IMG/VR virus record: IMGVR_UViG_3300042992_002239
Span: 1 to 23,414 of that record
Length of the DNA stretch: 23,414 bases
Direction: 5' to 3' (one strand)
DNA from: a virus
The translations under genes were made by a program, and so were the position numbers. The notes under the pieces are model-generated. The model saw only the letters and a list, made by a program, of their open reading frames with translations. It did not search any database and was not told the DNA's origin. Numbering within the stretch: the first letter of the stretch is position 1; each line of letters opens with the position of its first letter. Positions 3,269 through 23,414 of the stretch are shown piece after piece.

Positions 3269-3295
3269 TGTATACTGATTCTATCTCAATGTCAA
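3269..3295 (-). promoter_or_regulatory. sigma70-like promoter, short spacer
   Basis: The minus strand has TTGACA (3295-3290) followed after 15 nt by TATACA (3274-3269). The bases TTGACATTG match the promoter at 2434-2462. The 15-nt spacer is shorter than optimal. It overlaps the 3' end of the GIY-YIG-like gene and precedes the gene at 3020-3238. Confidence 0.5.
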
Positions 3296-3726
3296 TCAGT
3301 AATTTGTGTTTTCTGTAAATGTTTCAGATGACTACGGTTTATGCGGGCGCCAACAAACGCGTTGTAGTATTCATCTGGCTTAAGAAGAACATCGTTTTCT
3401 ATTTGTTCTTTAAGTTCAAAGTAGCTCATTTCTGCCGTAGTTTTACATAGGCGTAAAACCTTACGGCAAAACCTGTCTGGCCCAAACTCTTCTAGAAGTG
3501 CTTTCACCTCTTCACTTGACCCATAGTAGCTTTCCCAGTCAGATTCAGATACTACCCTGCGCTTACGCTTCTGGCCTTTGAGGGGCTTCAGAGTGCGAGT
3601 AGAGCTCAGCTTCTTTTTTCCGATGTACTTCTTACCATTCAGGGTGTCAGTGATCTCATATACAAAACCAGCATTACCATCAATATCATCTGAAGAGAAT
3701 GGCTTCCCTTCATACACCCAAGTCAT
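3292..3726 (-). CDS. GIY-YIG nuclease-like protein
   Basis: 144 aa with ATG 3726 overlapping the upstream stop as ATGA. Residues 20-40 show the GIY-YIG pattern: GFVYEIT at 20-26, then KKYIGKKKL at 32-40. A basic stretch follows (KGQKRKRR, 50-57), then ESDWESYYGS at 61-70 and a C-terminal part with YFELKEQIE and YYNAFVGARINR. Similar stand-alone proteins occur in many marine T4-like phages. In the wider family this fold makes DNA-cutting enzymes, including homing and repair nucleases. Its substrate here is unknown. It is coupled to a small zinc-ribbon protein upstream, and the two may act together. Confidence 0.72.
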   Translation of the reverse strand: MTWVYEGKPFSSDDIDGNAGFVYEITDTLNGKKYIGKKKLSSTRTLKPLKGQKRKRRVVSESDWESYYGSSEEVKALLEEFGPDRFCRKVLRLCKTTAEMSYFELKEQIENDVLLKPDEYYNAFVGARINRSHLKHLQKTQITD

Positions 3727-20569: not shown

Positions 20570-21193
20570 CTATTTAAAGCCGCCAAAGTTAGGTTTCTTT
20601 TTCTTAAAATTACTCAATTTATTCGACTCAAAACTTTCAACAACCTGAAAATCTTCATCCTGCATCATGCTAGATGAATCGAATAAAGGCTTATCTTCTG
20701 ATTGTTTAGCTCCGCCAGTGATTCCGTCTTGAGCAGATTCTTCAGCGTCAAATAGTTTCATTTTTGCTCGATCGACACCAATTACAAATCTCTTAGGGCT
20801 GTCAATACTTCCCCAACGATTCTTTAATTGCTTCACCATCAGTTGGCCAAGTTTTTCGAGCTCCTCAGTTGAAATGAGAGCGAACATGAAATCTGCTGTT
20901 GCCGGAAGACCGAAACTATTTTTAGTTAAGATACCATTACAATAAAAAAGGTTATCACCAGAAACTGATATATCAATTGTTTCTAATTCGCCAACTGGTT
21001 CAATAGATATGACTTCATCATCGTAATTTATTGATTGATCATTTATGATTTCTTTTTCTATCCGTTCTGTTTCTAACTTAATTAGTAATATGGTTAAATC
21101 TTCATGTGTGATTTTTCCGGAAAAATATTCAAATTCAATGAGTTTTTCTGCCTTTATTGCGCATTTTAGGTATAAGTCATAATCCGCTATCAC
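20570..21193 (-). CDS. 41: C-intein plus C-terminal part of replicative helicase gp41
   Basis: 207 aa starting at GTG 21193, which overlaps the endonuclease gene by 17 nt. Residues 1-92 are a C-intein: DDEVISIEPVGELETIDI, SGDNLFYCNG (block F) and ILTKN (block G), ending at Asn92. Ser93 is the first residue of the C-extein. SFGLPATADFMFALIS follows and continues the DnaB-like domain, then a C-terminal tail ending KKKPNFGGFK. After trans-splicing with the upstream product it would restore gp41, which unwinds DNA at the fork and recruits gp61 primase. The usual penultimate His of the intein is Lys91. Confidence 0.9.
   Translation of the reverse strand: MIADYDLYLKCAIKAEKLIEFEYFSGKITHEDLTILLIKLETERIEKEIINDQSINYDDEVISIEPVGELETIDISVSGDNLFYCNGILTKNSFGLPATADFMFALISTEELEKLGQLMVKQLKNRWGSIDSPKRFVIGVDRAKMKLFDAEESAQDGITGGAKQSEDKPLFDSSSMMQDEDFQVVESFESNKLSNFKKKKPNFGGFK
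20918..21193 (-). other. C-terminal half of a split intein
   Basis: A 92-residue region from the GTG start to Asn92. The last 37 or so residues match C-inteins of the gp41 split-intein type. The first 55 (IADYDLYLKCAIKAEKLIEF onward) are extra sequence not usual in such short C-inteins. Confidence 0.88.
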
Positions 21194-22226
21194 TTAACTT
21201 TTCCCTTATTATATCTGTTAATTTATTAATACTAACTATTTTATCATCGTCTGACCATACTGTCAATAAATCATAACCTCTTTTTTTACATAGTTCTTCC
21301 TTTTCTTCTTCTATTAGCATTGCGTCTTCAAAAGTGATCCATGGATTTAACCATTTTAAGTCATGTCTAGGATGCCAAAAAACACCATTATATTCGACAA
21401 CAAAACTAAGCTTAGGTATAGCAAAGTCAAAAAACCTTCCACTGTTTTCTTTACCTTCGTGCCTTATAAAAAACTCACGAGATCCACTAATACCAGTATA
21501 AATATCCTTTCTTTTGATGCCCATTTTACGACATATGCGATATAGTTTTACAAAAAACAACTTTGACTCTAACGAAACGTACCCAGCGCTTTTGCGATTA
21601 TGTCTATTTTTTTCACATGATTCTTTAAATTTTCTATTTCTTTCGGCGTAAATTCTTTTACCGTGTTCTTCACCGTGTCGAGATATTAATGACGATAAGT
21701 CATTTAAATAAAGATGCTGTTGCCTAAGAATTTCTCCTTCTTCTGGAGAATATCCCATATTAGTCCAATACTCAACGCATGCTTTAAGCTTTAATTTTGT
21801 GTCTTTATAAGATGCCTTTGACCTGGCCCGTACCTGTTTTAATTGAAACTCAGAAACCTTTTTCTTTGCATCTTCCTCAGTTAAACCCACCCTGATCATC
21901 CAATAATCTTTTTGCATAACACTGAAATACTTAGGTTTAGGCCTATTTTTTAACTTATGCTTGTACGTGTTTAATTCTTCTAAACCATATGCCATTAACA
22001 CCTTTTCGCTTTGTGAATTAGATTTGATATATGCATCATATATGTCTAAGGCGCGCGCAGAACCATTTGTTCTTATAATCTTGATCATAATTTTAGATCT
22101 AGATATCTTTAAATTATTGGGTATTGTATTAATCCAATCAATAAATTTTGATTTGTCAGTTTGATCGATCAAAGAAAGTATCGTGATAAAATACTTGCTC
22201 TCTTCAAATGAATTTAATTTTCGCAT
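21177..22226 (-). CDS. homing endonuclease, Vsr-like / EDxHD family
   Basis: 349 aa from ATG 22226 with a weak ribosome-binding site (GCGAG). Residues 263-289 carry the nuclease core: RFFDFAIP with Asp267, VVEYNG with Glu278, then FWHPRHD with His285, His288 and Asp289. This resembles very-short-patch-repair nucleases and the EDxHD homing family, as in I-Bth0305I and in the nucleases found inside fractured split-intein genes. Residues 160-205 (SPEEGEILR, SRHGEEHGKRIYAE) look like repeat units that bind DNA in such proteins. It lies exactly between the two halves of the split gp41 gene and is probably the element that spreads the interruption. A late promoter precedes it. Confidence 0.85.
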   Translation of the reverse strand: MRKLNSFEESKYFITILSLIDQTDKSKFIDWINTIPNNLKISRSKIMIKIIRTNGSARALDIYDAYIKSNSQSEKVLMAYGLEELNTYKHKLKNRPKPKYFSVMQKDYWMIRVGLTEEDAKKKVSEFQLKQVRARSKASYKDTKLKLKACVEYWTNMGYSPEEGEILRQQHLYLNDLSSLISRHGEEHGKRIYAERNRKFKESCEKNRHNRKSAGYVSLESKLFFVKLYRICRKMGIKRKDIYTGISGSREFFIRHEGKENSGRFFDFAIPKLSFVVEYNGVFWHPRHDLKWLNPWITFEDAMLIEEEKEELCKKRGYDLLTVWSDDDKIVSINKLTDIIREKLSDSGL

Positions 22227-22260
22227 TTGTATAAAACTCGCTGTTACTGTTGTTCAGCAC

Positions 22261-22268
22261 TATTTATA
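22261..22268 (-). promoter_or_regulatory. T4-type late promoter for the homing endonuclease
   Basis: An exact TATAAATA on the minus strand, in the 75-nt gap between the end of the N-intein and the endonuclease start. The transcript would begin near 22255, leaving a leader of about 29 nt. Confidence 0.65.
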
Positions 22269-22301
22269 AGTTTTACTTCTTTAGCAACGAATAGTTTTAT
22301 A

Positions 22302-23414
22302 TCATTTTAGTGTATTTAATTTAGATCCAACGGTCATTCCGGTATTAATAGACAATCTTCCATTACTTGTTGGAAATATATGATCAGCAGACACTATTAT
22401 TTCTTTACCTGATTTTAACTTAACCTTATAACATTCTTTTTTCTTTGGGTGATGTACCATCATTACAGTCTTGTAACCGTCATTAGAGATGATTTGATCA
22501 CCTACTTGAATATCGCGTAAATGTATAACATTACCATTTCTTAATTGTAGACTTTCGTTCACCCAAATACATTCAGATGTATCTGTGATTTCTACGTCGG
22601 AATTGCCGTAACCGCCTCTTGTAGTTTGCGTAGCAGAAAGTACTGGAACGTTAAACTCCATTGCCAAACCTCGCAACTCTTCTGCTATAGACTTTATCAA
22701 TGTATACGAGTTTACGTTCGCTCCACCTTTGATCCTTGAACTTGAGCAAATATTTAAATAATCAACAAAAATAATATCTGCAACAAAATTCTTTTTTAAG
22801 CGAAGCTCATTAAGCAAATGCCTAAAGTGATTTGAATTTGCAGAACCTGTTGGATATTCTTTAACAATCAATTTACCGGCAGTTCTGCTTTTCACCCTAT
22901 CAATCTTCTTTTGATATGAGTCCCGTGTAATCAGACTAAGATCATCAAGATTGATGTTAAGCAAATTAGCATCAATACGTTCTGCAATGCGCTCTTCGGC
23001 CATTTCCATAGTAATATAAAGCACGTTCTTTCCTGACATAAGAGACGATGCTGCACAATGTGTCATAAATAAAGTTTTTCCAACCCCTGTAGGCGCAAGA
23101 ACAATTGATAGGGACTTTTTACTCAGGCCGCCTTTTGTAATTTTGTTAAAGTACTCAAGATCAAATTGAAGTTTTTCTTCAACTCTATGATAGAAATCAT
23201 ATCGTTCTTCATAATTTTCAAGGAAATCATGGCCAACGTTTGTATCAAAACTAATACCTAAAGCATCACTCAAAAGCTTTGGAATCGATCCCTTATCGAG
23301 ATCTTTTACCTTGTCATCAAGAATAAGAATAGACTGTCTTACAGCATTATAAATTGCTTTGTCTTGGCAAAACTTTTCTGTTTTATCAACAAGCCAGTTG
23401 ATGTCAGTATTAGG
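22302..23414 (-). CDS. 41: replicative helicase gp41, N-terminal part with N-intein (5' end outside the window)
   Basis: The frame is open to the window edge and ends with a stop at 22302. Within it, FDLEYFNKITKGGL is followed by the Walker A box LAPTGVGKTLF, then LYITMEMAEERIAERIDAN, a Walker B region with IIFVDYLNICSS, and SATQTTRGGYGN, all typical of T4 gp41 and DnaB-type helicases. The helicase part ends at ITDTSE. Cys1 of an intein follows (codon 22571-22569), with block A and B motifs CIWVNE and GKEIIVSADHIFPTSNG. The N-intein is 89 residues and the gene then stops. It must be joined to the downstream fragment at 20570-21193 for a full helicase. Confidence 0.93.
   Translation of the reverse strand, partial: PNTDINWLVDKTEKFCQDKAIYNAVRQSILILDDKVKDLDKGSIPKLLSDALGISFDTNVGHDFLENYEERYDFYHRVEEKLQFDLEYFNKITKGGLSKKSLSIVLAPTGVGKTLFMTHCAASSLMSGKNVLYITMEMAEERIAERIDANLLNINLDDLSLITRDSYQKKIDRVKSRTAGKLIVKEYPTGSANSNHFRHLLNELRLKKNFVADIIFVDYLNICSSSRIKGGANVNSYTLIKSIAEELRGLAMEFNVPVLSATQTTRGGYGNSDVEITDTSECIWVNESLQLRNGNVIHLRDIQVGDQIISNDGYKTVMMVHHPKKKECYKVKLKSGKEIIVSADHIFPTSNGRLSINTGMTVGSKLNTLK
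22305..22571 (-). other. N-terminal half of a split intein
   Basis: 89 residues from the first Cys (22571) to the stop. Block A spans CIWVNESLQLRNG to DIQVGDQI, and block B is VSADHIF with the Hint histidine. The length and motifs match the N-halves of fractured gp41 inteins such as gp41-1 and gp41-8 as I recall them. Confidence 0.9.

Follow-up and report, generated by a model that had tools for sequence, protein, structure and literature searches.

The stretch of DNA analysed here (the window) is IMG/VR record IMGVR_UViG_3300042992_002239, a single metagenomic fragment of a virus, 23,414 nt in length. On its minus strand lies a fractured gene for gp41, the DnaB-like replicative helicase of T4-like phages, comprising an N-terminal half ending in an 89-residue N-intein, an endonuclease gene, and a 92-residue C-intein leading into the C-terminal half. 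An original prediction, made from the letters alone, had placed gp41 in two genes, with Cys1 of the N-intein right after ITDTSE and the C-intein ending at Asn before SFGLPATAD, and all of these coordinates and junctions held. It had overlooked the Vsr-type endonuclease gene, a promoter hairpin in front of it and a helical extension of the C-intein. The features of the locus, including two open reading frames (ORFs) for gp41, are as follows.

22302-23414, minus: gp41 N-half ORF (N-extein and N-intein); open at the contig end, stop codon at 22302-22304
22572-23414, minus: N-extein of gp41 (DnaB-like replicative helicase), truncated by the contig end; phrog_19 and DnaB_C matches
22305-22571, minus: N-intein, 89 residues, Cys1 following ...VEITDTSE; phmmer match to the gp41-1 intein 6qaz (E = 1.4e-15)
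22227-22301, minus: covarying hairpin preceding the endonuclease gene, its loop holding a late promoter; covariation across 16 loci
22261-22268, minus: late promoter box of T4 type, exact match TATAAATA, within the hairpin loop; box scan of the gap
21177-22226, minus: Vsr-like (PD-(D/E)XK / EDxHD-type) homing endonuclease, 349 residues, free-standing ORF; profile and structure-model matches
20570-21193, minus: gp41 C-half ORF (C-intein and C-extein), GTG start
21029-21193, minus: N-terminal extension of the C-intein, about 45-55 of 92 residues, predicted two-helix hairpin; conservation and structure model of a homologue (L013)
20918-21028, minus: C-intein core, blocks F and G, ending ILTKN with penultimate Lys; match to the gp41-1 C-intein
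20573-20917, minus: gp41 C-extein, beginning SFGLPATAD (Ser+1); stop codon at 20570-20572

A split intein within the helicase gene

Both exteins belong to gp41. The N-extein matches phrog_19 (E = 1e-82) and Pfam DnaB_C and is 60-68% identical to gp41 of DLP_6 and cyanophages, and the C-extein matches phrog_19 (E = 7.6e-14, profile positions 522-595) and the T4 gp41 structure 8dtp (E = 3.6e-10). The first half matches the phrog_19 profile as far as position 523 and the second half from position 522 on, bearing out the earlier claim that the extein edges join without loss; the same is seen where the cultured phage ESh36 is compared with an empty site in Salmonella phage SG1 (below). A group I intron was considered and rejected, the extein edges meeting at the protein level and the intein halves being coding.

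Splicing motifs are present in the N- and C-intein halves of the window, and the two halves complement each other. The likeness to gp41-1 that had been proposed was found in both: besides the N-intein, residues 60-92 of the C-intein align to residues 96-128 of gp41-1 (E = 0.0012). What the proposal had missed is that the C-intein ends in Lys-Asn and that the insertion site is TDTSE/SFGL (gp41 TSE/S), not the gp41-1 site TTRSGY/S(S/N)SD (SGY/SSSD in gp41-1), which lies 12 residues upstream. A scan for C-inteins in which the penultimate residue could be His, Gln, Asn or Lys retrieved 33 viral stretches, and in every one this residue is Lys. Many further members came from a profile search; a C-intein profile search of bacterial and archaeal genomes returned no relatives.

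The resulting family comprises about 54 related phage loci (designated L002, L003 and so on) with both halves at the same site, some of them near-duplicates. The intein halves were aligned as in-frame read-through fusions. Across the family, Cys1, the block B His (within an invariant SxxH), the block F Asp, the terminal Asn and Ser+1 are invariant, and every C-intein at the site ends TKN. Strong purifying selection acts on the C-intein core, for which the ratio of non-synonymous to synonymous variation (pN/pS) is 0.11 (16 pairs). The arrangement is not due to chance, since about 54 public phage loci share it and a cultured phage has it as a clean insertion relative to an empty site. The gp41 halves are probably joined by splicing.

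All full-length C-inteins at the site except that of L123 carry an N-terminal extension of 45-60 residues, also under purifying selection (pN/pS 0.16, 16 pairs). Its profile had no match beyond these C-inteins among the fetched ORFs and no convincing Pfam family. The C-inteins of gp41-1, gp41-8, NrdJ-1 and IMPDH-1 are 37-50 residues long (PMC11766414). In the window, the C-intein begins at a GTG codon with AGGGA at 21202-21206, overlapping the end of the endonuclease gene by 17 nt. The L013 halves are separated by one in-frame TAA and could therefore be modelled as a read-through fusion with AlphaFold 2 (AF2). The model (predicted local distance difference test score (pLDDT) 82, predicted template modelling score (pTM) 0.71) shows a Hint fold in which a two-helix hairpin lies between the two intein halves, and its closest structure is gp41-1 6qaz (template modelling score 0.91 by target length). 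The helical hairpin most likely assists folding or docking of the C-intein.

The endonuclease and its putative late control

A Pfam search of the 349-residue ORF between the halves returned nothing reliable, and the ORF matches the PHROGs endonuclease families phrog_559, phrog_3339 and phrog_9084. The sole PDB matches of a profile of ten relatives were three Vsr structures, at marginal significance (E = 0.043-0.059). In an AF2 model (mean pLDDT 80), the best nuclease match was Vsr 1cw0 (Foldseek probability 0.99, over the C-terminal domain), and D267, E278, W284 and H285 are among the residues invariant in the ten relatives; we thus found a Vsr fold with a conserved Asp/His active-site region, though with a marginal sequence match. 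Vsr-like homing endonucleases have been reported for fractured genes, and the window endonuclease fits this description. Its cleavage is presumably specific for intein-less gp41.

The 75-nt gap between the N-half and the endonuclease is an inverted repeat, with outer arms at about 22282-22301 and 22230-22243. Across 16 loci, compensatory changes occur in 9 of 11 stem pairs, and 91.5% of stem cells are paired, against 36-47% in controls with slid partners. Of 31 loci with the endonuclease, 20 have an exact late promoter box in the gap, compared with 0 of the 15 examined loci that lack the endonuclease, and in L003 a Shine-Dalgarno AGGAG falls within the 3' arm of the hairpin. By this sequence comparison, hairpin and late promoter come and go with the endonuclease. 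T4 homing endonucleases are repressed on early transcripts by a hairpin with a late promoter inside the loop (PMC2988022), and the endonuclease here would probably likewise be expressed late.

Endonuclease loss, mobility and additional inteins

A full middle ORF is present in 30 of the 54 loci (span 1553-1742 bp) and is missing or reduced to a remnant in 24 (span 537-874 bp). Decay is visible at several stages: the reading frame is broken in L003, 81 endonuclease residues remain in L018, a tail remnant (WSDD) can be seen in L048, L081 and L112, and L088 compared with L089 shows a clean deletion. A contiguous, re-fused intein was found in 0 of 54 loci. As 24 loci lack all or most of the endonuclease and none has re-fused, the intein stays split once the endonuclease goes. 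The halves are out of frame in several endonuclease-less loci, and most C-inteins begin at a start codon of their own, accompanied by a Shine-Dalgarno-like motif. In L013, L027, L088 and L096, the halves share a frame with a lone TAA between them, one stop codon short of a contiguous intein.

The element also occurs in other samples, identical in L002 and at about 79% identity in the N-intein in L003. Relative to the window, L004 has a different N-extein until 27 nt before Cys1 and then 0 mismatches in the 100 intein bases present. L002 and L004 have 0 mismatches at positions 117-537, after which L002 turns to the window type and is identical onward. These breakpoints look like co-conversion tracts.

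ESh36 is a cultured Tequatrovirus isolated from sewage (PMC9686686), with a complete genome whose record is flagged UNVERIFIED. Compared with SG1, it carries an exact 1553-bp insertion between flanks that are about 97.4% identical, and silent differences cluster beside the insertion site. An intact second gp41 is the observation that the original prediction had named as refuting it; none is present in the window record, which is a 23.4-kb fragment, or in the complete ESh36 genome, which has two halves only. As ESh36 has no intact gp41, its full-length helicase requires splicing, unless non-covalent assembly suffices.

Two contigs, the only ones found in a dedicated scan for tandem splits, carry a doubly split gp41 (L015:1401-5479 and L088:127-3252), in which a gp41-1-type split intein lies 12 residues upstream of the TSE/S site in the same gene. 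The upstream intein halves of L088 match gp41-1 closely, and a GIY-YIG-like ORF lies in the first break. Since the middle polypeptide consists of a C-intein, a 12-residue extein (SNSDLGLEDTSE or SSSDPELTDTSE) and an N-intein, in that order, assembly of the helicase in these phages should take three polypeptides, joined in two splicing events.

Other inteins and mobile genes were observed in the same set. A further intein sits at the gp41 Walker A region beside the TSE/S split intein in L012, L019, L041, L075, L093, L119 and L123, with gp41 in three ORFs in L012, L019 and L041, and L116 has an additional intein at a gp41-8-like site. The RecA-like gene uvsX contains intein pieces in L033 (7616-9185), L036, L055 and L082, and in L033 it is apparently split into two overlapping ORFs. 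Elsewhere in the window, a 144-residue ORF with GIY-YIG-like residues (3292-3726, minus) matches phrog_447 and two homing-endonuclease families, and six tRNA genes (two Met-CAU, Cys, Ile-UAU, Leu-UAA and Arg-UCU) lie at the other end of the fragment (109-1322, minus).

Interpretation and relation to known systems

Very probably, the locus is a mobile, trans-spliced element of the fractured-gene class that occupies gp41 in a T4-like phage and is equipped with a late-gated homing endonuclease. The helicase would be made as two proteins, whose intein halves would associate and then fold as a Hint domain. Class 1 splicing would proceed by Cys1 attack, transfer to Ser+1 and Asn cyclization, joining TDTSE to SFGLPATAD. 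The RNA hairpin would keep the endonuclease silent on early transcripts, with late expression from the promoter in its loop, and the endonuclease may then cut intein-less gp41, leading to the insertion of a copy of the entire cassette together with adjacent gp41 sequence.

Several observations count against this interpretation. The penultimate residue is Lys in place of the usual His, which is rare but compatible with splicing (PMC7664689, PMC4031507). Similarity to Vsr is of marginal significance at the sequence level (E = 0.04) and, at the structural level, is restricted to the C-terminal domain; the window hairpin taken alone is weak to modest (z = -1.8), so that the case for it rests on the relatives; and the L002 and L004 breakpoints could be assembly chimeras.

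The unusual Lys would also suit an improbable alternative, in which an endonuclease broke gp41 and the halves assemble non-covalently, as in the split NrdA of phage Aeh1, leaving the inteins as relics. There is documented precedent for such reassembly among phage enzymes split by endonucleases (PMC2988022), but the invariant splicing residues and the strong selection on the C-intein core would not be expected of relics. It is very unlikely that the halves are normally one chain, produced by stop read-through or recoding and spliced in cis: the single in-frame TAA in four loci would allow it, but the window halves are out of frame, with a 1.1-kb endonuclease gene and many stops between them, and the separate C-intein starts and the out-of-frame endonuclease-less loci also argue against it. 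The window being a single metagenomic fragment, an assembly artefact or a decaying pseudogene was also considered, and was rejected as hardly credible given recurrence in independent records (L002 and L003) and a cultured phage genome, intact window ORFs and purifying selection across the family.

Beyond the mobile, trans-spliced element itself, we tentatively suggest that the family may be a distinct split-intein lineage, marked by the Lys-Asn ending and a helical-hairpin accessory domain of the C-fragment (for docking, chaperoning or gating), in which the split is actively retained after endonuclease loss and which can combine with gp41-1 into a three-polypeptide helicase around a 12-residue extein.

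In 2009, Dassa et al. reportedly described fractured genes that combine split inteins with Vsr-like homing endonucleases; each consists of a conserved DNA-metabolism gene, a split intein and a free-standing Vsr-related endonuclease between the halves, and the window is alike. With gp41-1 (PDB 6qaz), the window element shares the host protein, an N-intein of 88-89 residues, Cys1/Ser+1 and the Hint fold, and with gp41-8 it shares the gp41 host and class 1 Cys1/Ser+1 chemistry. The native flank of gp41-8 is QLNR/S. The C-inteins differ, that of gp41-1 being 37 residues long, without an extension and ending THN, and that of gp41-8 being 50 residues long, compared with 92 residues and TKN in the window (gp41-1 and gp41-8 sizes from PMC11766414). 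The hairpin upstream of the endonuclease, with its late promoter in the loop, resembles the I-TevI-type control of T4 homing endonucleases (PMC2988022), but it sits inside the split-intein break, whereas I-TevI-type hairpins are intergenic or lie within a group I intron. The class of fractured genes is therefore already known, as the original prediction had said, and the window adds a new member to a branch distinguished by its extended C-intein, its own insertion site, a late-gated Vsr-type endonuclease, a split kept after endonuclease loss and three-piece relatives.

The origin of split inteins is an old question, and a single site here presents a natural series, from an endonuclease-bearing split, through a decaying or deleted endonuclease, to a compact and persistent split. 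The sole gp41 of the cultured phage ESh36 contains the element, which offers a tractable system for testing whether an essential replication protein is trans-spliced, whether the element homes and what the additional helical domain does. For protein engineering, the family supplies numerous new split inteins, among them a natural assembly of three pieces by two inteins.
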